From: Lentimicrobium saccharophilum
GTDB taxonomy: Bacteria > Bacteroidota > Bacteroidia > Bacteroidales > Lentimicrobiaceae
NCBI RefSeq assembly: GCF_001192835.1
Contig: NZ_DF968182.1
Span: 566,349-630,348 of the forward strand
Length of the DNA: 64,000 nucleotides
Reading direction: 5' to 3'
Below are positions 2,067-54,706 of the stretch, piece after piece (position 1 is the first letter of the stretch; each line of letters starts with the position of its first letter). The translations under genes and the position numbers were made by a program. The notes below the pieces were generated by a model, which saw only the letters and a program-made list of their open reading frames with translations, was not told where the DNA came from and did no database searches.

Positions 2067-2110
2067 TGTTTGTGTATTTGGTACACTAAGCAAGAGTGTA
2101 AAAATACATC
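2067..2110 (-). promoter_or_regulatory. Candidate operator upstream of sugar transporter (matches PUL element)
   Basis: A 15-bp inverted repeat GTGTATTTGGTACAC lies at 2072-2086 (arms GTGTA/TACAC). A weaker copy, GTGTA-N4-TACAT, lies at 2096-2109, about two helical turns away. Read on the minus strand, 2067-2090 matches 54431-54454 at 22 of 24 positions by eye. The sites sit about 240 and 262 bp upstream of the transporter start. The shared sequence and spacing are seen directly. Binding by a common regulator is inferred. Confidence 0.6.
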
Positions 2111-2222
2111 AAGAAATAATTATTTGCAATGCTTTTAAAAGAATTATAAAGTTATATACAAAAGTCCGTCGTAAAAAATTTGCAGTCAGGCGGATGGGCT
2201 ATTCATTTGGATAAGGTGGAAT

Positions 2223-2259
2223 AAAAAATAAGCCGGATACAAATGATGCACCCGGCTTA
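2223..2259 (-). terminator. Rho-independent terminator of sulfur operon
   Basis: Stem TAAGCCGG (2229-2236) pairs with CCGGCTTA (2252-2259). On the minus strand it is followed by a T-rich run (complement of 2223-2228). It lies 20 nt after the stop of the last rhodanese gene, as expected for the end of the six-gene transcript. Confidence 0.75.
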
Positions 2260-2278
2260 GTTATAATCAAGGGAACAG

Positions 2279-3130
2279 CTATTTTTCGAGTTTATTCGAT
2301 GATGTTGCAGCCCATTCGTTTACACCTCCTTCATAAATCTTTACATTGGGATAGCCAAGTATAGATTTGAGTGCAAAGTAACCTTTCCCTGCTCTGACAC
2401 CGGTTGGGCATACAAGGATAATTGTTTTGTCTTTGGTTGCTCCTGCAGCACTGAAGATTTTTTCGAGTTCAGCCTTTGATTTATAGGTACTGGCGGCCGT
2501 CATAAGGGTGGTGTGATCTACATTCACTGAGCCGGGGATTCTTCCTTTATTGTTCTTGGGATCTTTGCCGCTGAATTCAACATTTTCACGAAGGTCAACA
2601 AGGATTACTTTAGAGTTTCCGGAAGCGCCCTGCACCTCTTTCATATCAGCATAAATGGCTTTATTTACTGCCGGAGTGAAAGTTGCCGGTTTTACCGTTG
2701 TTGGATTTTTAGTTACAGGTTTCCGGCCGGCTTTCCAGGCTGACATTCCGCCATCCAGGACTTTTACATCCGGAGCTCCCAGGTATTTCAGCACCCAGTA
2801 AAGTCTTGAGGCATACTTACCTGCACCTTCATCATATACAACAATGGTTTTCTTTTCAGTGACACCTTTGGCACCAAGGATCTTGGCAAGTTCAGCCGGT
2901 GTGTTAAGAAGGCCTTCGATTCCTCCGGATTTTTCGAGGCTTTTGTAAGAAACATTTACGGCATTATTGATGTGAACCTTGGCATATTCAGTTTCAACTT
3001 CTGCCGAAACCACGATGTAGTTGGCATCTTTCAGTTTGGAGCTCAGTTCGGCAACGGTCATAAGGTCCTGGGCCAATACAGCCGTGCCCGTTAAAATCAG
3101 CGCGATTGTCGCAAATAGGAATTTTTTCAT
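2279..3130 (-). CDS. Periplasmic two-domain rhodanese (thiosulfate sulfurtransferase family)
   Basis: 283 residues with a signal peptide (1-20, ending AVLA). It has two rhodanese domains, about 24-137 and 155-280. The C-terminal domain has the active loop VCPTGVRAG with Cys241, the residue that carries the persulfide. The N-terminal domain has Asp100 in the equivalent place, which is normal for tandem rhodaneses where only the second half is catalytic. The family moves sulfane sulfur from thiosulfate or mercaptopyruvate-like donors to acceptors. The protein is probably periplasmic. It is the last gene of the sulfur module, 12 nt after the porin gene and just before a terminator. The actual sulfur donor is not known from sequence. 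Confidence 0.88.
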   Translation of the reverse strand: MKKFLFATIALILTGTAVLAQDLMTVAELSSKLKDANYIVVSAEVETEYAKVHINNAVNVSYKSLEKSGGIEGLLNTPAELAKILGAKGVTEKKTIVVYDEGAGKYASRLYWVLKYLGAPDVKVLDGGMSAWKAGRKPVTKNPTTVKPATFTPAVNKAIYADMKEVQGASGNSKVILVDLRENVEFSGKDPKNNKGRIPGSVNVDHTTLMTAASTYKSKAELEKIFSAAGATKDKTIILVCPTGVRAGKGYFALKSILGYPNVKIYEGGVNEWAATSSNKLEK

Positions 3131-3142
3131 TGATCTTCTATA

Positions 3143-4153
3143 TTAAAATTTAACCTGTAATTGAACAACGATTTCGTCGGTCGGAATTTCAACCGGTGAT
3201 TCGGCACGGTAAACATAATTTACCTGCAGGCGGGTCCAGTCGTTGAAGAAATAGTTAACCCCGAAAGTCATGTTACTTTCCTCATATCCTGTTGCGTTGC
3301 CTGAATCGAAGAAATCGTACATAAACACCGGCTCAATATTCCATTTTGTCATATAAGCAAGGGTAACGTATCCACCGCTTCTTTCTTTCCCCAATTCGAT
3401 CAGGTTTCCGCTGCATCCGCCACCGAGGTCGCGGTTGTAATCTCCTTCATCCATGATATATTCACCCAACAGGGTAAATCCGCGGTATTTGAGTTTCAGC
3501 TCACCGCCGAGGGTGGTTCGGCTGTCCTTATCATTCTGATATGATGGATAACCGTAGCGGAAACTTCCGCCGACATACAGGAAATCCCATGGGTGAAACA
3601 CAACCCGTCCGACAATATCTTTTTTCTTGTTGTTGTCGAATTTAAGCAATCCGCCGCCATTCATCAGCCCCAGCTGATAGGATACAAAAGTGGTATCGTT
3701 TCCGCCAAGGAGCATTGCGCCCATATCGCGGAAGGGAGCAACCATCTGCAGGGTGGCGGTTGAACGGTATACAGTCATCAGGCCATTGCAGGCGGTGTTT
3801 GTTTCCAACCCGAAAGGGGTTTTGAATGCGCCGACTGAAAGCCTGGCCATATTAAACCTGTCATAGGTGATAAAAGCATCAAGCAGGTACGGATTAGCGG
3901 AGATAAACGGGCTGAGTTCTGCAACCACATAATAGGAGAAGTCATAGGGAATTTTTCCCATTGCACCTATGCGCGCCCTTTCAAATGTAAAACTGTTTTT
4001 TGAAGGTTCGGTAAAGTGATGTTCATATTGAGATTGAAGGAAACCGAACATCTTCAGTCCTTCATCTGATGGAGCGCCGCCGCAGCCCTGTGCAGATACC
4101 CGGGTGATCGCAAATGCACCGATTATTGTTATAATGAAAAGTATCTTTTTCAT
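3143..4153 (-). CDS. Outer-membrane porin-like beta-barrel protein
   Basis: 336 residues with a signal peptide (about 1-21, ending RVSAQ). The rest alternates amphipathic strands with aromatic girdles and ends in VVQLQVKF, a C-terminal Phe typical of outer-membrane barrels. The pattern (FTFERARIGAMG, VSVGAFKTPFGLE, LLGGNDTTFVSYQLG) resembles the OprO/OprP phosphate-selective porin-like group that Bacteroidota use as general anion porins. It lies between two rhodanese genes with 14-nt and 12-nt gaps. The context suggests it lets oxidised sulfur anions such as tetrathionate or thiosulfate into the periplasm. That substrate is inference only. Confidence 0.8.
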   Translation of the reverse strand: MKKILFIITIIGAFAITRVSAQGCGGAPSDEGLKMFGFLQSQYEHHFTEPSKNSFTFERARIGAMGKIPYDFSYYVVAELSPFISANPYLLDAFITYDRFNMARLSVGAFKTPFGLETNTACNGLMTVYRSTATLQMVAPFRDMGAMLLGGNDTTFVSYQLGLMNGGGLLKFDNNKKKDIVGRVVFHPWDFLYVGGSFRYGYPSYQNDKDSRTTLGGELKLKYRGFTLLGEYIMDEGDYNRDLGGGCSGNLIELGKERSGGYVTLAYMTKWNIEPVFMYDFFDSGNATGYEESNMTFGVNYFFNDWTRLQVNYVYRAESPVEIPTDEIVVQLQVKF

Positions 4154-4167
4154 GATTTAAGTTTGGT

Positions 4168-5127
4168 TTAATTACCGGTAACGATTGGAAGGTTCTTCGA
4201 CATGGTGGGTTTCCACTTGTTGACCGATTCGCCCCAGGCGTTGCTTGCGTTGTTAAATTTGTTCATCCCCCACATGATGCTTTTTGCATTGTACCCGATC
4301 ACCCTGAGGTATGCGGTAATGGCTGCAGAGGTCTGGCCTGTGTAGCAATAAGTAAGTACTTCTTTAGAAGAGTCAAGATAATTGACCTGGCCTTCTCCCA
4401 CGAGCAGGGGATTAATTCTGTAGGCTCCGGTTACATGACCAAAACCTGCATAATCAGTTTCGCTGAAATAATTGTTGATAAAGTAATTGCCCGGGTTGGC
4501 AAGCACATCGGCCGGCTGAACAGTTTTGAACCCTTCTTCAAGTACCGCATTTACACGGGCCCTGAGAATATTGGCAGGAATGGTATCAGCGCTTGTGAAT
4601 TTCGGGCTCCCGAAGGTAAGATTGGTAGGAGCTGCAGTGCTTACCCAGTTGGTATTTCCTTCTGCAATACTTCCTATGTTGTTGCTCCAGATGTCAAGGG
4701 TGGAGTTCCATCCGCTCATTCCCCATTTCAGGGCCTGGGCATCGGGATAACCCGAAAGGCGGAGCAGGGCAACAGCATGCGTTGCTGTCTGACCCGATTT
4801 GCAAACAACGAGGATAGGTTTATCCGCTTTTGCAGCTTCGGTGAGGATGTCCTTCAGGTCTGCCCTGTGCGCATTTACGATATGTCCTTGCGCAAACTCG
4901 TCGGCTGTGCGGATATCAATTACATATTTTGCGGATACATCTCCATCAGCAGGAGCGCCCATTACAAATCCGCCAATAATGGTGTTGATGTCAAGGTTAT
5001 TGGCAACAAGATAGTTTGTAAGCGCTTTTTGAGCATCAAAATTTTCTTCATTTTCCTTTTTGCAGCTGGAGAGAAAAATCGCCGGTACAATGGCCAGAAT
5101 CAGGAATAATCTCATCATTTTTTTCAT
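4168..5127 (-). CDS. Lipoprotein with two rhodanese domains
   Basis: 319 residues. The lipobox is LSSC with Cys22 as the lipidated residue, followed by KKENEEN. The first rhodanese domain (about 45-142) has IDIRTADEF and the active loop VCKSGQTA with Cys109. The second (about 200-310) has loop YCYTGQTS with Cys261. Unlike ordinary tandem rhodaneses, both halves keep a cysteine in the active position. The second domain has lost the usual IDVR strand motif. The product should be anchored to the inner or outer membrane, facing the periplasm or the surface. It belongs to the octaheme operon, 52 nt after the preceding rhodanese gene. A role in carrying or releasing sulfane sulfur is likely; the partner is unknown. 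Confidence 0.87.
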   Translation of the reverse strand: MKKMMRLFLILAIVPAIFLSSCKKENEENFDAQKALTNYLVANNLDINTIIGGFVMGAPADGDVSAKYVIDIRTADEFAQGHIVNAHRADLKDILTEAAKADKPILVVCKSGQTATHAVALLRLSGYPDAQALKWGMSGWNSTLDIWSNNIGSIAEGNTNWVSTAAPTNLTFGSPKFTSADTIPANILRARVNAVLEEGFKTVQPADVLANPGNYFINNYFSETDYAGFGHVTGAYRINPLLVGEGQVNYLDSSKEVLTYCYTGQTSAAITAYLRVIGYNAKSIMWGMNKFNNASNAWGESVNKWKPTMSKNLPIVTGN

Positions 5128-5179
5128 TTCGTTGGTTTTTAGAGTTTGTTATTGATTGATTTCCGAATTATTAATTGCA

Positions 5180-5692
5180 TCAGCAACCTCCACCCGATTT
5201 AGGAGCTTCATGGTTGCCTCCGCCAAGCTTTTCAAGACTTTTTTCATAAATGTCAGGATAGGTCAGTTCCCATCTTTTCCACCCTTCTTTCAATGCCAGA
5301 ACGTTCTGATATCCCAGTTTCCGGAGAGTTTGGGCTGCCAGAATTCCTCTCTTGCCTTTCTGGTCATAAACCACGATTTTTTCCTCCTGGAGCGGCATAT
5401 ACAGGCCCACATTTTCCCAGAAAGACGAGTCGGCAATGTTGAATTCAAGGCTGCCCCGGGGAATGTTGATAGAACCCGGGATGTATCCGGGATAATGCTC
5501 TTCGGGCTGCCTGACGTCGATGAGGGTATAAACTTCTTCACCGTTCATCAGTTCATAAAGTTCGTCTGCCGTAATCAGTTTAACTTCTTTCAGCGCATTC
5601 TCCACCATTTCGTCGGCTGATGCATATTTTTCCTGTCTGCTGCAGGCGGCAAGCGCGAAAATGATCGTCAGTGCAAATACTGTTTGTTTCAT
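5180..5692 (-). CDS. Single-domain rhodanese-like lipoprotein, catalytic Cys replaced
   Basis: 170 residues, lipobox LAAC with Cys17. A single rhodanese domain (about 38-150) shows LIDVRQPEEH and GSINIPRG. The active loop reads VVYDQKGKRG: Asp110 stands where the persulfide cysteine should be. The protein ends in a Gly-rich tail with a terminal cysteine, SGGGC. Without the loop cysteine the domain cannot work as a normal sulfurtransferase. It may bind sulfur compounds, or the tail cysteine may take part; both are guesses. It lies 11 nt after the cytochrome b gene and is cotranscribed with it. Confidence 0.85.
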   Translation of the reverse strand: MKQTVFALTIIFALAACSRQEKYASADEMVENALKEVKLITADELYELMNGEEVYTLIDVRQPEEHYPGYIPGSINIPRGSLEFNIADSSFWENVGLYMPLQEEKIVVYDQKGKRGILAAQTLRKLGYQNVLALKEGWKRWELTYPDIYEKSLEKLGGGNHEAPKSGGGC

Positions 5693-5703
5693 GTTTTCAG
5701 TTG

Positions 5704-6327
5704 TTAAGCAGGTTGATTTTTTGTTTCAGTTTCTTCCTCAGGTTCATCTTCATAGCCTGAAATCATCGCCTTGATGTCGGTTGTGATGCGATGTCCGGTT
5801 GTGGTCATATACACATGTACGATCAAAAAGGCAACCATCAGAAAAGCCCCCATGGTATGGGTTATGACAGCGATCCACAGGCCACCGGCATCAATGGGGT
5901 TCTGAGGGTAGTGATAATACATATAGAGCAGGCCGGTGATGGTTTGAACGGGGAATATCAGGATAAGTAATCCAAAGTAGGTGAACCGCTGCAGCGGATT
6001 CATTTTATTGGACATGGTTCTTTTTACCGGATGCGCGTCGCCCTTGAACATCCCATAGGTATAATACCTAATTTGCTTTGTGAAGTTCCTGCGGGTTGGG
6101 ATAAAGTTTTTGTATTGTCCGGTTACAAACAGCCAGAAAATGGTGAAGATCCCAAGCAGAATAAATGTGATGGCAAATGCATTGTGAAGGCGCACAGCGG
6201 CTTCAAATCCGAAAATGGTGTAGTTCCCGTGAATTTCAAAACCGGTGAGGGTAAGAAGTATCACAATTGCCATCTGTGTCCAGTGCCAGAAGCGTTCGAA
6301 GCGGGAAAATATTTTGACTTTTTGCAT
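5704..6327 (-). CDS. Membrane cytochrome b (thiosulfate-reductase/cytochrome b561 type)
   Basis: 207 residues with four predicted membrane helices and His residues placed for two b hemes. These include RFERFWHWTQ in helix 1, RLHNAFAI in helix 2, and THTMGAFL plus FLIVHVYMTTTGH in helix 4. This matches the family of cytochrome b subunits that pass electrons from menaquinol to periplasmic c cytochromes or molybdenum reductases (PhsC-like, DUF4405/b561 group). The C-terminus is acidic and lies in the cytoplasm or at its edge. It starts 19 nt after the octaheme cytochrome, which is its likely electron partner. No molybdopterin subunit is present nearby. Confidence 0.85.
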   Translation of the reverse strand: MQKVKIFSRFERFWHWTQMAIVILLTLTGFEIHGNYTIFGFEAAVRLHNAFAITFILLGIFTIFWLFVTGQYKNFIPTRRNFTKQIRYYTYGMFKGDAHPVKRTMSNKMNPLQRFTYFGLLILIFPVQTITGLLYMYYHYPQNPIDAGGLWIAVITHTMGAFLMVAFLIVHVYMTTTGHRITTDIKAMISGYEDEPEEETETKNQPA

Positions 6328-6346
6328 GTGTTTTATGGTTTAAGGG

Positions 6347-7942
6347 TTAACCTTTTTTATAAAAGAGCCTCATCAGACTGTGAACAACCACTCCGGTTAT
6401 GGAAATGATGATCAGGATAAACCCTGTATAGTCCACGCCTTTGGCATAATCTCTTCCGGGAAGATAGAATCCTGCCAGGTTAGCCAAACGGCCTTCTTCG
6501 CTTCGCGTATGACAGTCAATGCATTTCAGGGTTTGTTCCTTTGGAGAAACCTGGTGGTTCAGGGGCCAGTACATTTCTGTGGAAACAAAATCATGCTGAC
6601 CGCTGTAATACCTTCCTGCATACTCCATTCCAAGCTGAATTGCGGTATCCCATTTAAGGTCTTCCCAGAAAGCGCCTTCACCTTTCTTTTCGGCAAAAAC
6701 CTTGACATTAACTATTTCTTTTGTAACAACATCATAGGCTTGTTTACCACGGTGCACCTTTACCGGCCAGATTTTGGCATCAGATTCTTCATATTTACCC
6801 ATAAGGGTATTGATTTTAACCGGTATTTCCGAAATCGTATCACCGTACAGGTAGTGATCAGCGGTACCATTGAACCAAAAGTATTCCGGCTTAACATGGT
6901 CATCCCATACAAACCGGCCTTTAATAGAGAGGTAGCTGTATTTATGATTGACATCGTATTCAGTGATCGGATTGCCGTTTTCATCCGTACGTCCCGCAAC
7001 AGACCAATCCCAATACATAACAGTGGGATTAACCTTGGCATACACCGGGATATGGCAAGTCTGACAGGCTACCTTATGATTGTGAAGGTCGATTACCTTA
7101 TCATTGTGAGGTGTACTGGTGTGGCAATGTTCGCAGGTTGCCCGGTTGTTATTTTCGGATGAAACACTGTAAGCCCTTCCGGTAATGTTGTGGCGCTCGG
7201 TCAGGTGACAATCGTTGCACGACATGTCCTGCCCTGCTTTTGCCATATGCACGTCCACCTCGCGCGAACAGTCAAGCATGGCCTCTTCCAGGTCACCGTG
7301 CTTTACATTATTACCACCTCCGCCATGGAAATGGCAGAATCCGCAATTCTCCTTCAGGGGCTTACCCACATTTTGGGCGATGTAATTATAATCCGGAACC
7401 GGAAACTCTGCGGTTGCGTTTTCATGGGTTGATGGCATACCAGCACCACCTTTACGTTTCTTATAAGTATTGGTATTGTCATGGCATACCAGACAGTCAA
7501 GGTTTGTCGGGTCCTCGAAGTCAAAGGTTTTGTCCTTCCATCCATATCCGATATGGCAACGCATACAGGATCCATTATTGCTTTCAGCGGAAGCACAGTA
7601 GTTATTGATCAGGTTTTTCTTTCCAATGCTTACCGTTCCTCTGCCGTTTGGGAGCTCCGATTCTCGTTCCCACCTCCAGTGTGCCGATGCCATCAGTTCA
7701 TCGTCACGTTTGTTATGACAGGAGAGGCAGGCGGCCGTAAGGTCCTGCGGGCGTTCAAAGTCCTGTTGCAGAATTTCGAATTGCGAATGGTCAACTTTTT
7801 TTTCAATATCCGCCCTGTTTTGATAAACAAACTTTTCCGGATTGCCCCGCCGGTTGCCGAAATGGACTGTGGCAAAGATTACCAGGGCTGGTAAAACCAA
7901 AACGACCAGGAGCGTTGTGAGTTTTTGCAGAAAATTATTCAT
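6347..7942 (-). CDS. Octaheme c-type cytochrome, tetrathionate reductase family (OTR)
   Basis: 531 residues with exactly eight CXXCH heme sites, starting at Cys72, 126, 150, 200, 242, 270, 293 and 474. It has an N-terminal signal/anchor helix (about 8-26) and a C-terminal membrane helix (about 506-527, then RLFYKKG), so the heme domain lies in the periplasm tethered at both ends or at the C-terminus. The heme spacing and the long heme-free stretch between sites 7 and 8 fit the OTR family. That family can reduce tetrathionate, and in vitro also nitrite and hydroxylamine, so the physiological substrate is not certain. A non-heme Cys116 lies shortly before heme 2. It is the first gene of a six-gene minus-strand operon, divergent from a Crp/Fnr gene. 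Confidence 0.92.
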   Translation of the reverse strand: MNNFLQKLTTLLVVLVLPALVIFATVHFGNRRGNPEKFVYQNRADIEKKVDHSQFEILQQDFERPQDLTAACLSCHNKRDDELMASAHWRWERESELPNGRGTVSIGKKNLINNYCASAESNNGSCMRCHIGYGWKDKTFDFEDPTNLDCLVCHDNTNTYKKRKGGAGMPSTHENATAEFPVPDYNYIAQNVGKPLKENCGFCHFHGGGGNNVKHGDLEEAMLDCSREVDVHMAKAGQDMSCNDCHLTERHNITGRAYSVSSENNNRATCEHCHTSTPHNDKVIDLHNHKVACQTCHIPVYAKVNPTVMYWDWSVAGRTDENGNPITEYDVNHKYSYLSIKGRFVWDDHVKPEYFWFNGTADHYLYGDTISEIPVKINTLMGKYEESDAKIWPVKVHRGKQAYDVVTKEIVNVKVFAEKKGEGAFWEDLKWDTAIQLGMEYAGRYYSGQHDFVSTEMYWPLNHQVSPKEQTLKCIDCHTRSEEGRLANLAGFYLPGRDYAKGVDYTGFILIIISITGVVVHSLMRLFYKKG

Positions 7943-7946
7943 AGCA

Positions 7947-7968
7947 CATTGTTAATTAATTAACAATG
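7947..7968 (-). promoter_or_regulatory. Perfect 22-bp palindrome at the 5' end of the octaheme gene
   Basis: The 22 bases are an exact palindrome with half-site CATTGTTAATT, beginning 4 nt upstream of the octaheme ATG. The core TTGTTAA/TTAACAA resembles Crp/Fnr-family half-sites (TTGT..ACAA). In RNA it would form an 8-9 bp hairpin covering the ribosome-entry region. It may be an operator, a translational switch, or both. The palindrome is seen; its function is inferred. Confidence 0.6.
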
Positions 7969-8053
7969 CGAAAGTAGGCTCTAGAAAGGTCAGGGTTTGC
8001 TTTCCAGACCCCAACCTGAACATGGATTTATGCCAACCTTAACGGATAAATAT

Positions 8054-8067
8054 TTGATACAGATCAA
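8054..8067. promoter_or_regulatory. FNR-type box TTGATACAGATCAA
   Basis: An exact match to the FNR consensus TTGAT-N4-ATCAA, located between the divergent octaheme operon and the Crp/Fnr gene. It is 58 bp upstream of the regulator start and about 112 bp upstream of the octaheme start. The regulator's recognition helix ESVAR matches the FNR ETISR pattern at the key Glu and Arg positions. Oxygen- or redox-controlled transcription of both units, including autoregulation, is a likely reading. The box also overlaps a possible -33 TTTG (8053-8056) for the regulator, with TTTCTTTG at 8079-8086 as a weak -7 element. Confidence 0.75.
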
Positions 8068-8124
8068 GTTTTTTTTTGTTTCTTTGCACAAAAGGCAAAG
8101 ATCTAACTAGAGAGATATTTGTAA

Positions 8125-8829: not shown

Positions 8830-8866
8830 CATCAGGAGAAATAGAAGTTAAGCCTTATATTAATGG

Positions 8867-10666: not shown

Positions 10667-10691
10667 CTGATATGAATTTAAATTGTGATTG

Positions 10692-10699
10692 CAAAGTTA
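10692..10699 (-). promoter_or_regulatory. Candidate -7 promoter element for the M14 peptidase gene
   Basis: The minus strand reads TAACTTTG, an exact TAnnTTTG match, about 26 nt upstream of the start codon. No clear -33 TTTG was found at the expected spacing. Confidence 0.4.
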
Positions 10700-10876: not shown

Positions 10877-13363
10877 ATGAAGCTTAACTTGAAAATCTCC
10901 TTTACTACTTTTTTTCTTGTTTCTACACTGTTTTTGGCTGAATTATCCGCTCAGGGAAGGCCTCAGGGACAACAGTCCGAAATGCCCCCGCCGGCTATTG
11001 GAATTATTAAAGGCAGGATTCTGGATGAAATTACGGGGAAGCCGATAGAATACGGAACTGTTGCACTTATTCGAGTGCGTGATTCTGTTCTGGCAGGGGG
11101 TACGATTTCTGATCCTCAGGGGCATTTCAGGATTGAGCAGCTTCGGCCGGGGAGGTATTTTGCCAGGGTTCAATTTATGGGCTTTGAAACGAAAACATTA
11201 AAGGATATTGCGATTAAGCCATCCGAGCCCGAAATAAACCTGGGGATTATAAAATTAAAACCGTCAGCCGCCAGTCTTGCAGGTGTTGAGATCACCGCAG
11301 AACGTGAGATGATGGTGAATAATCTGGATAAAAAGATCATCAATGTTGATAAGAGCATTGCTTCTATCGGCGGATCGGCTGTTGATGTAATGCAGAACAT
11401 TCCTTCAGTAACGGTTGATGTAGATGGCAATGTCAGTTTGCGTGGAAATAGTAACATCACCATTCTGGTTGACGGTAAGCCAACCGGACTGGCTGAAATC
11501 AGCAGCGGGGATTTATTGCAGCAGATACCTGCAACCTCTATTGAAACCATCGAAGTTATAACCAATCCATCGGTAAGGTATGATGCTGAGGGCACATCGG
11601 GAATTATCAACATTGTTCTGAAGAAGCGCAGCCTGCAGGGATTGAACGGAATGTTCTCGGTGACCGCCGGTACCGGTGACCGCTATAATACTTCTGTGAA
11701 TCTTAACTACCGGAAAAATAAAGTAAACCTGTTTGCCGGCTATGATAACAGGCTGGGAAAATTTAACTCAACCGGAAACACTGAAAGAAGAACATTTAAT
11801 GATGAGATGAATTCGGTGTTGTTTCAGGATCAGGTGATGCGAAACAACAGGGACATGCACAGTTTCAATGCGGGGATCGACTATAGCCTGGACGACTTCA
11901 ATACCCTGACTTTCAACTATCAGCTAAGGAGAATGTCGTTTGGTAACCGGGGCGACAACGCTTCGCTGACCATGAACGAACTGAACGACACCATGCGTTA
12001 TTTTAACCGCTACAGCGAAAGTGCCCGCAATATAAGTTCCAACAATTACACATTGTCGTACAAGCGTACTTTCAGTAAAAAGGGCAAAGAACTGACTGCA
12101 GATTTCATTGTAAATGACAATGAGATGACAGGAGACCAGAATATCACGCAAACTGAATTTACCAGGGGTTTTGATCCCCTGAAGCCTGCGCTGCAGTTTT
12201 CTTCTTCGAGGAATACCAATATGATGTATGTTGCACAGGCCAATTTTGTGAATCCGCTGTCAAATGGCGGACGCGTAGAAACCGGATTTAAAAGTACGCT
12301 CAAGAATCTGTCAATGAGGAATGATATGTCGGAATTCAGCTATCCGATCAATGACTGGATTCTGAACGATAATGCCTTGAACAACTTCGATTATTTAGAG
12401 CAGATCCATGCCGTTTATGGAATCTATTCCGGCAGTTATAAAAAGTTTAAATATCAGGCGGGTCTGAGGGCGGAGCAATTGATTTCGGAATCAGATATCA
12501 TTAATGCCAGTGATAATTTTGATTTGTCCTATCTGAGCTTGTTTCCCTCGGTACACACACTTTATGAAATTACTGAAAAGCAGCAGATGTCAGTCAGTTA
12601 CAGCAGGAGGATCCGGCGGCCGCACAACCATCAACTGAATCCTTATGTTGATTATTCCGATTCACTCAATATCCGTTATGGTAATCCTAAACTCAAGCCT
12701 GAATTCATCAATTCATTCGAACTGGGGTATTCCAACTTCTGGGGTAAAAACTCGATCAACTCAACCCTGTTCTACAGGTATACCACCGGAGTAATTGACC
12801 GTATTGTTTATCTGCTCGATGGGGGGGTAACGGCCACCACTTACGAAAACCTGGCCAGCAGCAAGGCTTATGGACTTGAACTGATCGGGAACCGGGAGTT
12901 TTCAGCCATGTTGAAGGCAAATGCCAATTTGTCTTTCTTCAGAAGTATCATTGATGGCAGTGAGGTGACGGGGCTGGAAGCAGCAAAAGGGAATATGTGG
13001 ACGGCAAAGGTCAACCTGACGATCATTCCCGTAAAAAATGCATCGATTATGATTGCTGGGAACTACAGGTCCCCTGAAATTGAAGCGCAGGAACGCGATG
13101 AAGCGGTATATTTTGCCGATATCGCATTCAGATACGATTTCTGGGAAAACAAGGCTTCGGTAAACCTTAGAGTCAGTGATGTTTTTGATTCGCGCCGTTT
13201 TGATGGAGAAACCTGGGGTGAAGGATTCAACATCAGATCGAGCCGCAAAATGGAATCCAGGGTGCTATACCTTGGATTTTCATACAGGCTGAATAATTAT
13301 AAACGTCAGCGTGAGCGGGAGCGGGACAATCAGAATAGTGAAATTGAGATGGAGGAGTTTTAA
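10877..13363 (+). CDS. Outer-membrane TonB-dependent receptor-like protein with CarboxypepD_reg domain
   Basis: 828 residues from the ATG at 10877, which opens a proper signal peptide (1-24, ending ELSAQ). A longer frame from a TTG at 10817 would spoil it. After the signal come a carboxypeptidase-regulatory-like beta-sandwich (about 33-110, IKGRILDEITGKPIEYG), a plug domain (about 120-240, with NIPSVTVDVDGNVSLRGNSNITILVDGKP), and a beta-barrel to the end. It fits the outer membrane beta-barrel (OMP_b-brl_3) group, not SusC. The C-terminus RERERDNQNSEIEMEEF is charged and extends past the barrel. The substrate is unknown. It is divergent from a secreted carboxypeptidase, so uptake of peptide-related ligands is possible but unproven. 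Confidence 0.87.
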   Translation: MKLNLKISFTTFFLVSTLFLAELSAQGRPQGQQSEMPPPAIGIIKGRILDEITGKPIEYGTVALIRVRDSVLAGGTISDPQGHFRIEQLRPGRYFARVQFMGFETKTLKDIAIKPSEPEINLGIIKLKPSAASLAGVEITAEREMMVNNLDKKIINVDKSIASIGGSAVDVMQNIPSVTVDVDGNVSLRGNSNITILVDGKPTGLAEISSGDLLQQIPATSIETIEVITNPSVRYDAEGTSGIINIVLKKRSLQGLNGMFSVTAGTGDRYNTSVNLNYRKNKVNLFAGYDNRLGKFNSTGNTERRTFNDEMNSVLFQDQVMRNNRDMHSFNAGIDYSLDDFNTLTFNYQLRRMSFGNRGDNASLTMNELNDTMRYFNRYSESARNISSNNYTLSYKRTFSKKGKELTADFIVNDNEMTGDQNITQTEFTRGFDPLKPALQFSSSRNTNMMYVAQANFVNPLSNGGRVETGFKSTLKNLSMRNDMSEFSYPINDWILNDNALNNFDYLEQIHAVYGIYSGSYKKFKYQAGLRAEQLISESDIINASDNFDLSYLSLFPSVHTLYEITEKQQMSVSYSRRIRRPHNHQLNPYVDYSDSLNIRYGNPKLKPEFINSFELGYSNFWGKNSINSTLFYRYTTGVIDRIVYLLDGGVTATTYENLASSKAYGLELIGNREFSAMLKANANLSFFRSIIDGSEVTGLEAAKGNMWTAKVNLTIIPVKNASIMIAGNYRSPEIEAQERDEAVYFADIAFRYDFWENKASVNLRVSDVFDSRRFDGETWGEGFNIRSSRKMESRVLYLGFSYRLNNYKRQRERERDNQNSEIEMEEF

Positions 13364-47667: not shown

Positions 47668-47701
47668 AATCAGTCAGCAAACGCTCTAAAATTCAAATAC
47701 T

Positions 47702-48403: not shown

Positions 48404-48454
48404 AGGCTTTTACTTTAAATTTTGATTTCCCGGCAATCCCTAAATACCTGAACC

Positions 48455-50863
48455 ATGTTTGCCAATTACCTGAAGACTGCTTTGCGCAGCCTGATGCGCC
48501 AGAAGAATTACGCCCTGATTAATCTTGCCGGGCTCTCGTTCGGGATTGCAGCTTTTATCCTTATCATGCTGTATGTGCAGCATGAATTGAAATTCGACCA
48601 TCACCTGAGTAAGCGTGACCGGATTTTCAGGGTGGTTGAAATTCAGAATGAGCCGGGTGTTGGTGAGCAGCATGTAGCCATTACCATGGGCCCGCTTGCC
48701 CAGGCAATGCTCAACGATTTTCCCCAGGTAAAGAACGCAGTCAGGCTGATGAGTGCTTTTAATGTGACTGCTGTCAGTCATGGTGAAAAGTCATTCAGGG
48801 AAGACCACCTGTATTATGCCGATCCCTCAGTAATCGACATGTTCGATATTTCTTTCATATACGGAGATCCGGCCACCGCGCTGAAGGAGCCACGAAGCGT
48901 GATTTTATCAAAAAAAGCTGCGGAAAAGTACTTCGGTGATGCCGCGAAAGCCACAGGAAGTAATCTTTTATTTGACAAGACAGGTTTTACGGTTACCGGG
49001 GTTATGGAAGATCAGCCTGAGACTACCCACTTCTTTTTCGATATGCTGATGCCCATCGCCACTGCCGAGGCATTGCCCGGATTTGAATGGATGAAGGGCT
49101 GGGGTTCCAATTCGCTGGTTACCTATGTGGAGCTGGACAGGACTTCATCGGCCGAGGAGGTTAACAAGGGATTTGATGATTTTCTGAAGCGGCATGTCTT
49201 TAGCCAGGAAGACGGCTGGCAGTACCTCGAAATGTATCTTCAGCCGCTGAACGAAGTGTATTTGAAATCAGGCCATATTAAGTTTCAGAATGTTTCAGCC
49301 ATGGGCGATGCTTCCATGGTAAATGTTTTTATCGTGATTTCGGTGCTTATCCTGCTGATAGCCTGTGTGAATTTTATCAATATTGCCATTGCGCGTTCCG
49401 TTAAGCGCTCACGGGAAGTAGGTATGCGTAAAGTGCTGGGTGCGGGCAGAGGCAGTCTTATCGTTCAGTTTATCAGCGAGTCAGCCATTATTACCCTCAC
49501 CTCGGTATTGATTGCCATTGGAATCGTTGAACTGGCCCTTCCTGAATTAAATAAAATGCTTGGCACTTCCTTCAGCATAGATTTCATTTCGAATCCCCTG
49601 TTTAACGTTGGTTTGCTGTTTCTTCTCGTGCTGATCAGCCTGGTCTCGGGTTCATATCCGGCATTCTACCTTTCGCGCCTGCATCCGATCGCTGTGCTGA
49701 GGGGCATTTCGGGGAAGTCAGGTCCGGGCAGCGGTTTACTGAGTAAGATTCTGGTAGTTTTTCAGTTTATTATTTCTGTCGGGCTGTTGCTTGCCGTATT
49801 TGTTATTCACGATCAGGTAAATTTTATCAGAAACAAGGATCTGGGCATTCAGTATGTTAACAGATTGTATGTGGACTTTGGCGAAACAGGGTATGAAAAA
49901 ATCCGGGTTATCAAGCAGGAACTCATGCAGCATCCGGCCATACAACAGGTTTCAGGATGTTCTTATGTGAATGGTGTGGCCGGGAGCCAGGGGCCGGTAT
50001 TCGTTGATGATTCAGCCAATACCAAGCTTTATGTAAGATATGGCTTTGTGGACGATGATTTTTTCGGCACTATGGACGTTCAGTTTGCCGATGGCCGCAA
50101 TTTCAATGGTTTACAGTCAGGAGATATCAACAGGGCGGTAATCGTGAACCAGGCTACCATAAACGCGTTGGGGTGGGATAACGCCCTGGGGCGGAAGTTT
50201 GTGTTCCCCCAGTCTGCCGATTCTTCAGGGAAGGCTGAAATTATCGGCGTGGTGAAAGATTATCATTATTATTCATTGCGCAGCCCCATAGAACCTGCCG
50301 TATGGATATGGCAGCCGGAGCGCTTCAAGGGTGTTGTTATTAAATATGCAGGCAGTGGCAACAAGGATGAAATCAGAAGTTTTATTGAATCGAAGTGGGC
50401 TTCCGTTTATCCCGGGTTGCCGGTGCAGATTATGGAGGCCCCCAATTATCTGACACAGAATTACAAAGGCGACCAAACCACCTTTACCCTTTTCATTTAT
50501 TTTACCCTGGTTTCCTTGCTGCTTTCCTGCCTTGGTCTGTTTGGCCTCACTTCATTGCTGATTGAACAGAGAACCAGGGTGATCGGCATCAGAAAGGTGA
50601 TGGGCGGAACTGTTACCCAGATTACCGTTCATCTGGTTAAAGATTATCTGTTACTTGTATTAACTGCAGGGATTATCGCTTTGCCTGCCGGTTATTTACT
50701 ACTTCAGAAACAATTGGATGAGTTCGCCTACCATATCTCCATCAATGTGATCCATTTGATAGTGCCTGTTATACTGGCATTGCTGATCGCTTTCCTGACC
50801 ATTGTTTTCAAAGCGTATAAGGCAGCAAATGCCAATCCGGTTATAGCCCTGAAGTACGAATAG
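48455..50863 (+). CDS. FtsX/MacB-like ABC transporter permease
   Basis: 802 residues. Same two-half architecture as the pair at 21.7-26.6 kb: N-terminal helix after YLKTALRSLMRQKNYALINL, MacB core domain, helices, coupling motifs GMRKVLGAG and GIRKVMGG, and C-terminal NPVIALKYE. Here the gene has its own ATPase and adaptor upstream. Together with the divergent NtrY/NtrC pair this looks like a stress-induced exporter of peptides, lipids or drugs. Confidence 0.93.
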   Translation: MFANYLKTALRSLMRQKNYALINLAGLSFGIAAFILIMLYVQHELKFDHHLSKRDRIFRVVEIQNEPGVGEQHVAITMGPLAQAMLNDFPQVKNAVRLMSAFNVTAVSHGEKSFREDHLYYADPSVIDMFDISFIYGDPATALKEPRSVILSKKAAEKYFGDAAKATGSNLLFDKTGFTVTGVMEDQPETTHFFFDMLMPIATAEALPGFEWMKGWGSNSLVTYVELDRTSSAEEVNKGFDDFLKRHVFSQEDGWQYLEMYLQPLNEVYLKSGHIKFQNVSAMGDASMVNVFIVISVLILLIACVNFINIAIARSVKRSREVGMRKVLGAGRGSLIVQFISESAIITLTSVLIAIGIVELALPELNKMLGTSFSIDFISNPLFNVGLLFLLVLISLVSGSYPAFYLSRLHPIAVLRGISGKSGPGSGLLSKILVVFQFIISVGLLLAVFVIHDQVNFIRNKDLGIQYVNRLYVDFGETGYEKIRVIKQELMQHPAIQQVSGCSYVNGVAGSQGPVFVDDSANTKLYVRYGFVDDDFFGTMDVQFADGRNFNGLQSGDINRAVIVNQATINALGWDNALGRKFVFPQSADSSGKAEIIGVVKDYHYYSLRSPIEPAVWIWQPERFKGVVIKYAGSGNKDEIRSFIESKWASVYPGLPVQIMEAPNYLTQNYKGDQTTFTLFIYFTLVSLLLSCLGLFGLTSLLIEQRTRVIGIRKVMGGTVTQITVHLVKDYLLLVLTAGIIALPAGYLLLQKQLDEFAYHISINVIHLIVPVILALLIAFLTIVFKAYKAANANPVIALKYE

Positions 50864-51466
50864 TGCACACAGGAAGCTCCTGTATTATTTCACCGGTTGG
50901 ATGACCGGATGATTTCTGTCTGTCATCATTCATATACATCATTCTGAGCAGGTTAATCTATTTCGGATAGAGTGGTCCTTCTTTTTTATTCAGATCCCGG
51001 ATCACTAGATTATTGCCGGTTCCAGATAAATTATTTATACAATCTGCTTAAGCATAACACTTATCAATCGATTTGCCAGTGTTGATTCTGAACCCTTCTC
51101 CTTTCCCGGGTTATAAACTGATCAGCATTTTGGGTGTTGTGTTTGCGATAATGATCAGCATTAATACGTCAGGTATTCTCGTTAGCTATCTGCTTTAATG
51201 AATAATATTTTTCCTGAATATCATAATTATAATTAATCCGGATAATGCAGAATGTAATAATTCTGATGATCCGGAATGCCCGGATGGTGAAAAGAATTTG
51301 CATCGATTGCTTATTTGGATTATTAAATAACATGAAATCAGGATGATAGAAAATTTTCATCGCCGAATGAATACAAATTCCGGCTTGGCCGGATTTATTT
51401 TAATCAGTCAATGTAATATAGATGCATTTCATTAGAAAATCTTATCCGGTAGCTTGAAAAATAGTT
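50864..51466. other. Intergenic stretch, no gene seen
   Basis: About 600 bp of AT-rich sequence. A small hairpin ACAGGA-agc-TCCTGT (50869-50883) right after the permease stop may act as a weak terminator. No convincing frame or RNA gene was seen in the rest. Confidence 0.4.
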
Positions 51467-51474
51467 TATTTTTG
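51467..51474 (+). promoter_or_regulatory. Candidate -7 promoter element for the arginine decarboxylase
   Basis: TATTTTTG is an exact TAnnTTTG match 33 nt upstream of the start codon. No clear -33 at the usual spacing. Confidence 0.5.
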
Positions 51475-51507
51475 CATTCCTTATTCATTTAATTATTCTC
51501 TCAGGCG

Positions 51508-52899
51508 ATGAAAAACAAATACATTGATCTCATTGAGCAAACATTCGACTTTCCCCAGGAAGAATTCCGGGTTGAAGACAATGAGCTGTATTTTCACAAT
51601 ATTCCTTTGATGGATATCATCAAACAATATGGTACACCACTAAAGATATCCTATCTGCCGAAGATCAGCCAGCAGATTCAGAAGGCCAAGAAATTGTTCA
51701 ATGTTGCCATTGCGCGGAGCGATTACCAGGGGGATTATCATTATTGTTATTGTACGAAGAGTTCCCATTTTTCATTTGTACTGGAGGAAGTGCTTAAGAA
51801 TGATGTACACCTTGAAACCTCTTCCGCATTTGATATTTTTTTGCTGGAGACCCTGCATGAACAGGGGCTGATTGACAAGGAGACCTACATTATCTGTAAC
51901 GGGTTTAAACGGCCGCAGTACATTGAGAACATTGCCAAGCTGATCAATGAAGAGTTTGTGAATACCATCCCCATCCTCGACAACAAGTTTGAACTGGATC
52001 AGCTTGACCGGAACATCACCCGCAAGTGCAAGATCGGTATGCGGATTGCCGCTGAGGAGGAGCCGAAATTTGAGTTTTACACTTCAAGGCTGGGAATCCG
52101 TTACAACGACATCATTCCCTATTATGAAGAGAAGATCAAGAACAATCCGAAATTTGAACTGAAGATGCTGCACTTCTTTATCAACACAGGGATCAGGGAT
52201 TCAGCCTATTATTGGAATGAGCTTTCGAAATGCGTCAATCTGTATTGTCAGTTGAAACATATTTGTCCTGAACTTGATTCATTGAATATTGGCGGTGGTT
52301 TCCCCATCAAGAATTCGCTTTCGTTTGACTACGATTACGAATATATGGCCGAGGAGATCATTGCACAGATCAAGATGATCTGTGACAGGAACAACACTCC
52401 GGAACCACATATTTTCACTGAGTTCGGCTCATATACCGTTGGAGAAAGCGGCGCCGTGCTCTATTCAATCATTGACCAGAAACAGCAGAATGACCGGGAG
52501 TTGTGGGATATGATCGATTCATCATTTATGACCACGCTGCCTGATACCTGGGCCTTGAACCAGCGTTTTATTTTACTGGGCATTAACAAATGGGATTCGG
52601 AATACGAAAGGGTGTTTCTGGGCGGGCTTACCTGCGACAGTGAAGATTATTACAATGCAGAGGCACACGCCAACGCGATATTTCTTCCCAAGCTTGACAA
52701 CGAAGAGCCGCTGTACATCGGTTTGTTCCATACCGGTGCTTATCAGGAATCCATCGGGGGTTACGGAGGGATTCAGCATTGCCTGATTCCTGCGCCCAAG
52801 CATATTATTATTGATCTGGACGAAGAAGGCGAATATACCACCAAGCTTTTTGCCAAAGAACAATCGCACAAATCAATGCTTCGCATTCTTGGTTACTGA
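51508..52899 (+). CDS. Arginine decarboxylase-like PLP enzyme (fold type III)
   Basis: 463 residues. Alanine-racemase-fold decarboxylase. The PLP lysine is Lys84 in YHYCYCTKSSHF. Other landmarks are RLGIRY, LNIGGGFPI (PLP phosphate loop), EFGSYTVGESG, and GLTCDSEDYYN, where the Cys and Asp form the second half of the dimer active site. It is shorter than E. coli SpeA but matches the compact form found in Bacteroidota, where it makes agmatine, the first step to putrescine and spermidine. An agmatinase homologue follows 328 bp downstream with its own promoter-like element. Substrate specificity (arginine over other diamino acids) is from family and context. Confidence 0.83.
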   Translation: MKNKYIDLIEQTFDFPQEEFRVEDNELYFHNIPLMDIIKQYGTPLKISYLPKISQQIQKAKKLFNVAIARSDYQGDYHYCYCTKSSHFSFVLEEVLKNDVHLETSSAFDIFLLETLHEQGLIDKETYIICNGFKRPQYIENIAKLINEEFVNTIPILDNKFELDQLDRNITRKCKIGMRIAAEEEPKFEFYTSRLGIRYNDIIPYYEEKIKNNPKFELKMLHFFINTGIRDSAYYWNELSKCVNLYCQLKHICPELDSLNIGGGFPIKNSLSFDYDYEYMAEEIIAQIKMICDRNNTPEPHIFTEFGSYTVGESGAVLYSIIDQKQQNDRELWDMIDSSFMTTLPDTWALNQRFILLGINKWDSEYERVFLGGLTCDSEDYYNAEAHANAIFLPKLDNEEPLYIGLFHTGAYQESIGGYGGIQHCLIPAPKHIIIDLDEEGEYTTKLFAKEQSHKSMLRILGY

Positions 52900-53227
52900 G
52901 GCCTTTTGCAGCAGTCAAATTTTATAATTTATAGTCAGATTCCTGTACAGGTGTGTCCATGCCAGATGTATTTTTATGTGCAGGTCGAACCGGTGATTCA
53001 GTTGCCTTGTTCTGCCATGATGCGTGTTGGCAGGTTATACCCGTTGTTCCACTGCATACCCCTTACCTGATCTCTTTTTCCGGCCATGAAAATAACGGAA
53101 TATTATCTTTCCGGTGATGGTTTTTCTTAAAGCTTGTTTAACTTTGTAGTCAGGGTTACTGATTCCCGAAGGGATTATTTTTTTATTTATCCGGTTTTCA
53201 AACACGCAGTAAAAAATTAACCTGACC
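52900..53227. promoter_or_regulatory. Gap between decarboxylase and agmatinase homologue, with -7 element
   Basis: No frame seen. TAACTTTG at 53139-53146 is an exact TAnnTTTG match 81 nt upstream of the agmatinase-family start, so that gene probably has its own promoter. Confidence 0.4.
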
Positions 53228-54097
53228 ATGAAACAGAAACAATTCGGATCACTTCCTGTCCAGCTTACGAACTTTGAGAATGCAAAATTTGTAATCCTTC
53301 CGGTTCCGTTCGAAGGTCCCGGCCATGTTTTCAAAGGCTCGGACAAGGGTCCCGAAGCCCTGATTGATGCTTCTGCTTCCATCGACCTGTATGATATTCA
53401 TTCCGATTCAGAAGCCTATAAGGCCGGCATACACACAGCAGAGGCTGTCAGGGAGCGGTCACCCGAAAAAATGGTGAAAGAGGTGCAAGCCAGGACCCTG
53501 CAACTGCTTAAGAAAAAGAAATTTCCGGTTATTGTTGGCGGGGAACATACCGTTGCCATCGGGGCATTCAGGGCTTTTGCCGACTATTACAAGGATAAGG
53601 ATCTTACCATTCTGCAGTTTGATGCCCATGCGGCGGGAAGTGCTGAAGCAGGGGGTACTGCTTACCATCACCATTGTGTAATGAAGCATGCAGCTGTTCA
53701 TGCACCAGTACTTCAGGCAGGAATCAGGAGCATGAGTCTTGCTGAGCGCGAGGATGTGGAGCCGGGCAGAATGTTTTACGCCGGAAGCATGCTCGACGGA
53801 TCCAATAAGACCTGGATGTATGATTTTCTGAATAAATTAACAAGGAATGTTTTTATCACCATTGACCTGGATGTACTCGATCCATCACTGATGCCGGCGG
53901 TAGCAACGCCGGAGCCGGGAGGACTTCAATGGTCCGGATTTATTGAAATACTCACCAAGGTCAGCGAAAAATCGAACATTGCCGGAGTGTGTATTGCCGG
54001 ACTTGTCCCGATCAAATATAACAAAGCGCCCAATTTTATCGCCGCCAGGCTTTTGAACACCATTCTAACCCTCAGATATACTTCTGCATTGAAATAG
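53228..54097 (+). CDS. Agmatinase-family (ureohydrolase) protein with a lost metal ligand
   Basis: 289 residues, full length. Ureohydrolase fold: GGEHTVAIGA (His107), FDAHAAGSAEAGG (Asp132, His134), and TIDLDVLDPS (Asp213, Asp215), then TPEPGGLQW. In active agmatinases and arginases the second motif is DAHxD. Here position 136 is Ala, and the following residues that usually shape the substrate pocket are replaced by a Gly/Ala stretch. One of the six manganese ligands is therefore missing. The protein may be inactive, altered in specificity, or regulatory. The codons are GAT GCC CAT GCG GCG, so a change of at least two bases separates the last codon from Asp. Context next to arginine decarboxylase argues for an ancestral agmatinase role. 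Confidence 0.85.
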   Translation: MKQKQFGSLPVQLTNFENAKFVILPVPFEGPGHVFKGSDKGPEALIDASASIDLYDIHSDSEAYKAGIHTAEAVRERSPEKMVKEVQARTLQLLKKKKFPVIVGGEHTVAIGAFRAFADYYKDKDLTILQFDAHAAGSAEAGGTAYHHHCVMKHAAVHAPVLQAGIRSMSLAEREDVEPGRMFYAGSMLDGSNKTWMYDFLNKLTRNVFITIDLDVLDPSLMPAVATPEPGGLQWSGFIEILTKVSEKSNIAGVCIAGLVPIKYNKAPNFIAARLLNTILTLRYTSALK

Positions 54098-54706
54098 TTT
54101 ACCTGATTTTCCGAACTGATAGCGGATTTTTCGCGTAAGGGCATGGCTGCGGGTGGAAGGTCTGTAAGGGCAGTACCTTTCTTTACGTTTGTTTACGGGG
54201 GGCTCTGAACCGGATTGAGCATCTGATAATGCTTAAACGATTAAGTGTTTATGGTCTGCCCGATATTACCTGCGCAAAACCAACACCAGACCGGAGTCTC
54301 CTCAGAAAATCAAAAGTTCAGCCCGTTCAGGCTTTCTGTTGATTAAGCCGGGTTTATTTTTTCTGACAACCTGTAAATGCAATTGTTTTTTTCTTGTTTA
54401 TTAGAAAAAGTTCACTTAGTTTTACTGCCACTTAGTGTATTAAATACACAAACATAGTGTATTAAGTACACATAAGAAAAGGTTTAATGTAATCTCCGGA
54501 AATAATTAGTCTATAGAGTTCATAAACATTGAGTTACCGATGTGAGTGACTGAAACGGAAAAAGCCGGAGGAGAAATGATTTTTAAATTGTTGTATAAAG
54601 GATATACTTTGAATGCAGGCAATTTTGGGCAGGGCTGAATTTTAAAGGTGTTTAATGAACAGATTACAGGCAAAACCAAATACAAACCAAACCAAACCAA
54701 TCAAAA
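54098..54706. other. Upstream region of the polysaccharide-utilisation locus
   Basis: No gene seen. It holds two operator-like inverted repeats (separate entries). A further dyad CTTAA-ACGA-TTAAG is at 54232-54245. A possible promoter TATACTTTG ends near 54619. A leader ends with several CAAACC/CAAAC units (about 54669-54700) just before the lipoprotein ATG. Confidence 0.5.
54431..54471 (+). promoter_or_regulatory. Tandem inverted-repeat operator upstream of the SusCD locus
   Basis: Two 15-bp inverted repeats, GTGTATTAAATACAC (54435-54449) and GTGTATTAAGTACAC (54457-54471), lie 22 bp apart centre to centre, i.e. on the same face of the helix. They are about 265 and 243 bp upstream of the first PUL gene. 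54431-54454 matches the sugar-transporter upstream region (2067-2090, other strand) at 22 of 24 positions. Binding of two dimers of one regulator is likely; the regulator is not encoded next to either site. Confidence 0.7.

Follow-up and report, generated by a model that had tools for sequence, protein, structure and literature searches.

Two elements before a SusCD operon and a sugar importer operon

Why should a SusCD operon and a distant sugar importer operon be preceded by nearly the same palindrome, and which protein would read it? The question arises in a 64,000-nucleotide stretch of the Lentimicrobium saccharophilum genome (below, the window; positions 566,349–630,348 of contig C1 of genome G000, an assembly of 4.51 Mb in two contigs, C1 and C2, that is 97% complete). 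Sequence comparisons suggest, at a probability of about 0.85, that the two elements are operators of one dispersed β-glucan and glucose regulon, for which an NrtR-family protein is the most likely regulator. The initial annotation had proposed one undescribed regulon; the union of the SusCD operon and the importer was supported and a wider set of targets was found, and "undescribed" held only in part, as the motif and the regulator family are those of the arabinose regulator BtAraR, published in 2015. The features of the window that bear on the question are the following.

495–1841, minus strand: sugar importer of the major facilitator superfamily (MFS), GluP type, first gene of the target operon (NCBIfam gluP TIGR01272, 243.9 bits, cut-off 202.55)
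Mostly beyond position 1: secreted PF10091 "glycoamylase" protein, next gene after the importer (PF10091 and Por_Secre_tail)
2069–2089, minus strand: predicted operator of the importer operon, TTAGTGTACCAAATACACAAA (motif scans, orthologue footprints)
2099–2106, minus strand: −7-like promoter box TATTTTTA of the importer operon (TAnnTTTG consensus, available text of PMC7366714)
2127–2129, minus strand: TTG at the −33 position, 20 bases before the importer −7 box
54394–54396, plus strand: TTG at the −33 position of the SusCD operon, 20 bases before its −7 box
54417–54424, plus strand: −7-like box TAGTTTTA of the SusCD operon
54432–54452, plus strand: predicted operator 1 of the SusCD operon, TTAGTGTATTAAATACACAAA
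54454–54474, plus strand: predicted operator 2, in tandem, 22 bp downstream, ATAGTGTATTAAGTACACATA
54707–56470, plus strand: PKD-domain protein (Pfam PKD) with a lipoprotein-like signal judged by eye, first gene of the SusCD operon, perhaps a surface glycan-binding protein
56511–59468, plus strand: SusC-type TonB-dependent transporter (TIGR04056, 879 bits)
59480–60940, plus strand: SusD-type protein (PF07980 and PF14322)
61012–62565, plus strand: glycoside hydrolase family 30 (GH30) enzyme (PF02055; NF053856, 435.6 bits, cut-off 700)

The NCBIfam model closest to this GH30 enzyme was that of the endo-1,6-β-glucanase BT3312, with a score below the model's cut-off.

The likeness of the two elements was as first described: the complement of 2067–2090 and 54431–54454 share 22 of 24 bases, and the 15-bp repeat GTGTA-N5-TACAC is exact at 2072–2086, 54435–54449 and 54457–54471. 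Nowhere else in the window was it found with up to one mismatch. Among 100 shuffled windows the mean number of matches was 0.61, and three of the 100 reached three. When scored with a weight matrix built from sites of the genus, the training set of which includes the first two window sites and a copy of the GluP site, the three window sites gave 27.0, 25.5 and 21.6, whereas no other window position exceeded 3.9.

A second, spaced copy had been claimed beside both elements. At the SusCD operon it was confirmed (54457–54471, 22 bp on), and the tandem operator is kept in two relatives (G004 and G013). At the importer the candidate at 2096–2109 (GTGTAAAAATACAT) was rejected, since its spacer is 4 bases and it coincides with the −7-like box TATTTTTA; no 21-mer starting at 2086–2120 scored above −12 by the matrix, and the box is kept in orthologues that lack the palindrome, such as those of G005, G014 and G016. 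Over the 67 sites examined, a tandem second site stood at +22 in eight and at +69 in one other. The +22 spacing corresponds to roughly two turns of the helix and is near the 24 bp of AraR.

Counting the bare 10-base pattern GTGTA-N5-TACAC in G000 was uninformative, with 6 sites against 4.8 expected from composition and 1 in the reversed control. The flanked 21-mer TTWGTGTA-N5-TACACWAA gave three exact sites against 0.007–0.018 expected, and two further sites at one mismatch. With up to three mismatches there was no excess in G000 (48 sites, against 95 in the reversed control), so only near-perfect sites are meaningful. The signal sits in the flanks of the palindrome, not in the bare motif. The initial annotation had named a genome-wide scan as the test that could refute it; because the bare motif is near chance frequency, that test is ambiguous if run with the bare pattern, and it was the flanked 21-mer that proved far above chance. 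In 52 distinct sites with up to three mismatches, the first G of the GTGT and ACAC half-sites was kept in 50 and the other seven positions in all 52, a conservation that selection by mismatch itself favours.

Other sites in the genome

Further sites in G000 stand before genes that fit the window operons. The site at C1:543,371 begins 62 bases before a second GH30 gene, and that at C1:460,907 lies 68 bases before the gene for a ROK-family sugar kinase, a protein that matches the ROK glucokinase model weakly (67 bits, cut-off 260). On the second contig, the site at C2:1,158,445 is 136 bases before a GH5 gene whose product carries a type IX secretion system (T9SS) tail and carbohydrate-binding modules of families CBM6 and CBM35. 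The site at C2:541,214 precedes a PF10091 protein and a GH3 β-glucosidase of the BglX type; PF10091, Pfam's "Glycoamylase" family, presumably includes the GH144 β-1,2-glucanases. The targets (importer, SusCD, GH30, ROK, GH5 and PF10091-GH3) plausibly have glucan or glucose functions. In the literature searched, which did not take in RegPrecise or the 2008 NrtR family paper, no NrtR-type glucan or glucose regulon was described, and NrtR, AraR and XylR are absent from the main text of PMC12596196.

Just outside the window, at about 556–564 kb of C1 (L026:4406–12282), a SusC-like gene is accompanied by a truncated duplicate of its N-terminal part; an IS256 transposase gene and another transposase-like frame lie nearby.

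The candidate regulator

G000 has a single match to the NrtR winged-helix domain (NrtR_WHD; C1:1,225,731), in a 249-residue protein encoded near C1 1,225,218–1,225,967, about 600 kb from the window SusCD operon. On the sequence evidence this protein is the most likely regulator of both elements. A Nudix domain at its N-terminus (PF00293, 36.4 bits, cut-off 21.1) is fused to a C-terminal NrtR winged helix (PF21906, 92.9 bits, cut-off 27), with AraR_C (PF19368) at 40.7 bits (cut-off 23.8), which is the architecture of the NrtR family. The Nudix catalytic signature GX5EX7REUXEEXGU is impaired, the stretch REUXEEXGU reading RVLKELTGL with two of three Glu replaced; impairment of this kind is typical of the family, according to the available text of PMC4666351.

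The protein is 39% identical to BtAraR. Its recognition helix, D-K-R-N-F-R-K, is identical to that of BtAraR, so that the helix contacts K179, R180, N181 and K184 are kept. The BtAraR sugar residues R34 and H131 align with R35 and H151, and R86 with R90 or R96 depending on the alignment program; R35, H151, R90 and R96 are all invariant in the genus alignment (A1). The hydrophobic pocket differs (BtAraR F36 is M or F, G48 is D and F49 is L), and about 15 residues are inserted around the arginine that pairs with R86 in the alignment. The insertion and the changed pocket positions make a different sugar plausible. A predicted structure of a near-identical protein (L094, first row of the second alignment, A2; mean predicted local distance difference test score, pLDDT, 84.8) matched both AraR and NrtR folds, the best matches being the AraR structures 5bs6, 5dd4 and 5deq.

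In a regulator alignment search, the closest named records were from a Bacteroidales assembly (98% protein identity) and a Lentimicrobium sp. assembly (97%), which puts the host in the Lentimicrobium group, of the family Lentimicrobiaceae in the Bacteroidales. In the tree, the regulators of the genus and those of four uncultured Bacteroidales described below (L105–L108) form one clade (17 rows, support 99/95), apart from AraR and from a Bacteroidaceae group found beside FGGY kinase genes. The protein is accordingly placed outside the AraR orthologue group, with a separate clade and glucan rather than arabinose targets. Its predicted operators are of the AraR type, that is, 21-bp semipalindromes with GTGT half-sites, often in tandem. 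The 35 NrtR_WHD matches gave 30 loci, three of which (L063, L068 and L087) are absent from the tree because the start of the Nudix domain was not recovered; of the 29 loci from the alignment search, 13 are in the tree and 20 in A2. In the genus members L075 (downstream of 1737), L052, L059, L096, L099 and L102, a conserved open frame, about 189 residues long, comes after the regulator gene.

Co-occurrence and footprints across the genus

Forty-one genomes were scanned, 19 from the genus and 22 from elsewhere in the order. The exact 21-mer was present in 13 of the 19 and in none of the 22, and the reversed control was 0 throughout. NrtR_WHD was likewise found in 13 of the 19 genus genomes. Exact 21-mer and regulator occurred together in 12 genus genomes and both were missing from five, with sites only in G001 and the regulator only in G003, where one- and two-mismatch sites stand before the ROK and PKD genes (Fisher p 0.003, kinship ignored). 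Four of the genomes without a regulator (G002, G007, G010 and G017) had only Nudix-like matches, open frames of 153–178 residues without a winged helix, and G008 gave no Nudix-like or regulator match in the regulator search.

The 500 bases before orthologous genes were then taken as footprints. Among regulator-positive genomes, a site was found before the importer in 11/11 (up to one mismatch), before PKD-SusCD in 11/11 (up to two), before the second GH30 gene in 12/12 and before ROK in 12/13 (both up to three). The initial annotation had named absence from orthologous upstream regions as a refutation; in regulator-positive genomes of the genus the operator is kept before four orthologous gene groups. 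In the regulator-negative genomes other than G001, no site with fewer than four mismatches was found before the importer (0/5), PKD (0/2), GH30 (0/2), ROK (0/4) or PF10091-GH3 (0/2); the best matches there had 5–6 mismatches for importers, 4 for PKD, 4 for GH30, 5–6 for ROK and 5–6 for PF10091-GH3. In G001 the corresponding mismatches were 0, 0, 1, 3 and 3. No GH5 orthologue was found in regulator-negative genomes.

G010 and G017 have the importer and the kinase without operators, and searches for PKD and GH30 genes in these two genomes gave no match. In the ROK and importer trees, many forks of which are weakly supported, the regulator-negative genomes occupy three distinct branches: G010, G017 and G007/G008, the last joined by G002 in the importer tree. 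The footprint counts used all 17 importer, 18 ROK and 12 GH5 rows. Seven paralogues (37–39% identity) and one G003 fragment were left out of 22 PKD rows, and 18 rows at no more than 39% identity and one G007 fragment out of 34 GH30 rows. For PF10091, 13 of 36 rows were used (12 at 76% identity or more and the longer G009 piece), and the matches used from G001, G008, G009 and G012 hold a stop.

Position of the operator relative to the promoter

The geometry of the sites was examined in the four main groups, importer, SusCD, GH30 and ROK, using the −7 consensus TAnnTTTG given in the available text of PMC7366714. A TAnnTTTG-like box starts 8–22 bases before the operator at 46 of 50 sites; the corresponding rates were 8.4% for Markov shuffles and 8.9% elsewhere in the same sequences. 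A box with a TTG 18–22 bases further up was found at 36 of 50 sites (1.2% in shuffles, 0.9% at other positions), with the GH30 group contributing 3 of 13. Within the importer group, 12/12 sites have the box 15–17 bases before the operator, while the distance to the start codon ranges from 163 to 445. The importer and SusCD groups together have near-constant box-operator spacing at 21 of 24 sites and operator-to-start codon distances of 84–445 bp; the window operators are about 250 and 275 bp from their start codons.

The initial annotation had taken the long upstream distance as a sign of activation. That interpretation was not upheld: the operator tracks the −7-like box at near-constant spacing, a repressor position, and not the start codon, so the 240–275 bp are read as an mRNA leader and repression is likelier than activation. 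The operator probably overlaps the very beginning of a long transcribed leader.

The regulator gene in relatives

Neither window element has a regulator gene beside it, as first noted. This is true of G000, yet a regulator adjoins the orthologous locus in four other Bacteroidales genomes. In these uncultured Bacteroidales (L105–L108), which lie outside the 19 genus genomes, a regulator 68–72% identical to that of G000 is divergent from orthologues of the PKD, SusC, SusD and GH30 genes (52–67% identical). A GH16 gene follows PKD in L105 by Pfam, and likewise in L106 and L108 by eye; L107 has no GH16, and the last gene of its locus is a GH5 gene with 49% identity to the dispersed GH5 of G000. 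Each 20-kb locus has one strong matrix site (two in L108), always between the divergent regulator and the PKD-SusCD genes. These intergenic sites, none of which is in the training set, score 15.8–21.1, with the next best position in the locus at 1.4–2.2. Genome scans placed exact matches at the regulator-SusCD region in all four genomes; one further exact match, in G044, is inside a GH3-fragment-like open frame at a contig end (L254). The local arrangement may have come first and the dispersed one arisen from it; we infer this direction, the tree leaving open how L105–L108 branch relative to the genus.

Within the genus, the regulator gene itself is preceded by perfect sites in G005 and G012 and by sites with one or two mismatches in G003, G009, G011 and G015.

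Two other sets of NrtR genes were seen beside such sites. G012, G005 and G011 (L088, L090 and L092) encode an additional NrtR paralogue, from another clade, whose gene is preceded by sites scoring up to 25 bits. Its neighbours are a gene for an MFS-type transporter (assigned to MFS_2 by Pfam in L088) on one side and a SusC-like gene (by eye) on the other, and cross-talk between the two paralogues is possible in these genomes. In the Flavobacteriales loci L118 and L120 (about 11593–12840), a 43%-identical NrtR gene lies close to a gene that resembles BadF, with a Pfam score under the cut-off, and to a glyceraldehyde-3-phosphate dehydrogenase (GAPDH) gene. The GAPDH gene of L118 is flanked by three strong sites (29.1, 20.6 and 19.8 bits), one of them the perfect TTAGTGTAAAAAATACACTAA. 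A glycolytic gene would be an unusual target.

A model for the regulon and its alternatives

By analogy with BtAraR, a dimer of the regulator would read the two GTGT half-sites. It would sit just downstream of the −7 box, over the transcription start, and block transcription; where operators are 22 bp apart, two dimers would lie on one face of the DNA. A cytoplasmic sugar would bind the Nudix domain, shift the winged helices and free the promoters, and the release would switch on the glucanases, the SusCD transporter, the inner-membrane importer and the sugar kinase together. Physical binding, repression, the inducer and the exact glycan are what we infer. The inducer would perhaps be free glucose or a short gluco-oligosaccharide, a guess that we hold slightly above even odds because a glucose/galactose-type importer and a ROK kinase are in the regulon.

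A number of observations count against this model. In G000, the site at C2:794515–794535 (L024:9516, 20.6 bits), between branched-chain aminotransferase and hypothetical genes, and the site near C1:555,194 (L026:3194, matrix score 16.2) have no evident glucan link. NrtR_WHD proteins also turn up in 12 of the 22 genomes from elsewhere in the order, and the exact 21-mer is absent from all of these, so a genome with the domain need not carry the motif. G001 has sites, yet a search with the full-length regulator alignment found no regulator fragment there; perhaps the gene was missed because the assembly is 79% complete and in 590 contigs. The ROK gene of G018 lacks a site. Among regulator-positive genomes, the GH5 site (up to three mismatches) is found in just 6 of 12, and the PF10091-GH3 site in 6 of 10 at up to three mismatches and 9 of 10 at up to four; GH5 and the PF10091-GH3 operon are weaker members of the regulon. 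An upstream −7 box is missing from both groups (0/6 and 0/7), and by eye the GH5 sites cover the −33 region, with a TAnnTTTG box downstream of them. Seven of the 13 regulator-bearing genus genomes, G000 included, have 3–6 mismatches before the regulator gene. In the genomes of L105–L108, one-mismatch matches were no commoner than in the reversed control. Finally, the wing residues K204 and R205 of BtAraR are H and K in the regulator.

Palindromes of this general kind serve many regulator families, and a protein of another family (LacI, GntR or Crp-like) might bind the same sites, with the NrtR protein merely sharing their distribution; the co-occurrence comes from 19 genomes of one genus and was compared for NrtR alone. 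The match to the BtAraR operator, the identical recognition helix, the sites before the regulator gene in G005 and G012 and the divergent regulator in L105–L108 make such a protein improbable. That the pentose-type regulators AraR or XylR are what the protein truly represents, with glucan genes as side targets, is suggested by its nearest named relatives, which are AraR and the Bacteroidaceae proteins beside an FGGY sugar kinase gene, as published for XylR, and by the Arg and His residues alignable with R34, R86 and H131. We nevertheless think it unlikely, given a clade apart from both groups, the insertion of about 15 residues near the R86 equivalent, targets that are glucan enzymes, a glucose/galactose-type importer and a sugar kinase, and the lack of any pentose gene at the strong G000 sites inspected.

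Start codons about 250 and 275 bp away would suit an activator bound far upstream, as the initial annotation proposed, and so would the placement of the GH5 site, since some activators also occupy the −33 region. In the importer, SusCD, GH30 and ROK groups, however, the site follows the −7 box whatever the leader length, and arabinose makes BtAraR lose its hold on DNA (available text of PMC4666351); we regard activation as unlikely. A chance likeness of two AT-rich palindromes, to which the near-chance count of the bare pattern (6 against 4.8) might point, is contradicted by the footprints, that is, by conservation before four orthologous gene groups across the genus, as well as by the excess of the 21-mer, and its probability is negligible. 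The NrtR-regulated glucan and glucose regulon is thus the reading that we prefer.

Neighbouring genes

Directly upstream of the importer promoter, window positions 2279–7942 (minus strand) encode two rhodanese-like proteins, an ExtI-like porin and an octaheme cytochrome of the tetrathionate-reductase family; the rhodanese and porin genes keep this location in G004, G012, G013, G014 and G016. Translations indicate arginine-decarboxylase-like and agmatinase-like genes on one flank of the SusCD operon (51508–54097) and a deoxyhypusine-synthase-like gene on the other (62634–63608). An agmatinase-like gene also precedes the SusCD operon in G004, G012, G013 and G018.

Comparison with known systems

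Agrobacterium NadQ, a regulator of NAD metabolism without glycan genes, is of the same fold family as the G000 regulator, as is Shewanella NrtR. In the available text of PMC4666351, NrtR differs in binding ADP-ribose and regulates NAD metabolism, without glycan genes. BtAraR (BT0354; PDB 5bs6, 5dd4, 5ddg and 5deq) is much closer: it shares the Nudix sensor, the winged helix and the recognition helix, the GTGTA-N5-TACAC core in a 21-bp operator, the tandem operators and, on the present model, the control of SusCD and glycosidases together with uptake genes. The same source, so far as available, gives a 21-bp motif with tandem sites 3 bp apart, crystal contacts that define GTGT, and a BT0356 operator oligonucleotide that contains GTGTATTTGATACAC followed by a second site; BtAraR is proposed to be a repressor that L-arabinose makes unfit for DNA binding (PMC4666351). 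The differences are the 39% identity, the other clade, the insertion of about 15 residues in the G000 regulator near the sugar-pocket arginine, arabinan rather than glucan targets, and a tandem period of 24 bp rather than 22.

XylR (BT0791), the Bacteroides xylose regulator, is of the same family, in a separate clade and with pentose genes. The Bacteroidaceae proteins beside an FGGY kinase gene, 42–46% identical to the G000 regulator, are probably XylR, judging from synteny, with the kinase scanned in L110 alone. No matrix site above 13 bits was found in the three Bacteroidaceae loci scored (L110, L111 and L115). The 1,6-β-glucan locus BT3309–BT3314 of B. thetaiotaomicron resembles the window operon in its SusCD pair, its GH30 and GH3 enzymes and a fungal-type β-glucan (available text of PMC5481569). 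It differs in an in-locus SusR-type regulator, BT3309, with predicted direct-repeat sites, in place of an NrtR protein (available text of PMC3878776).

The protein family, the operator type and the control of SusCD by such a protein are already described for AraR; it is the target set that is unusual. We propose tentatively, at somewhat less than even odds, that this is a third sugar-sensing NrtR branch, in which free glucose or a gluco-oligosaccharide would switch on, not repress, genes for β-1,6- and other β-glucans, and that a local SusCD-GH30 regulator, of the kind seen in L105–L108, became genome-wide in Lentimicrobium by the spread of operators to the importer, the kinase and stray glucanases.

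In sum, a likely regulator is assigned to a SusCD locus that has none alongside, with Bacteroides AraR as the precedent for action from a distant gene, and extracellular breakdown, import and phosphorylation would be joined under one switch. If this is true, the known targets of sugar-sensing Nudix regulators widen from pentoses to glucans, and with glucose as inducer, breakdown of the glycan would be induced by its own end product. The comparison with L105–L108 suggests how a local regulator can become a dispersed one.

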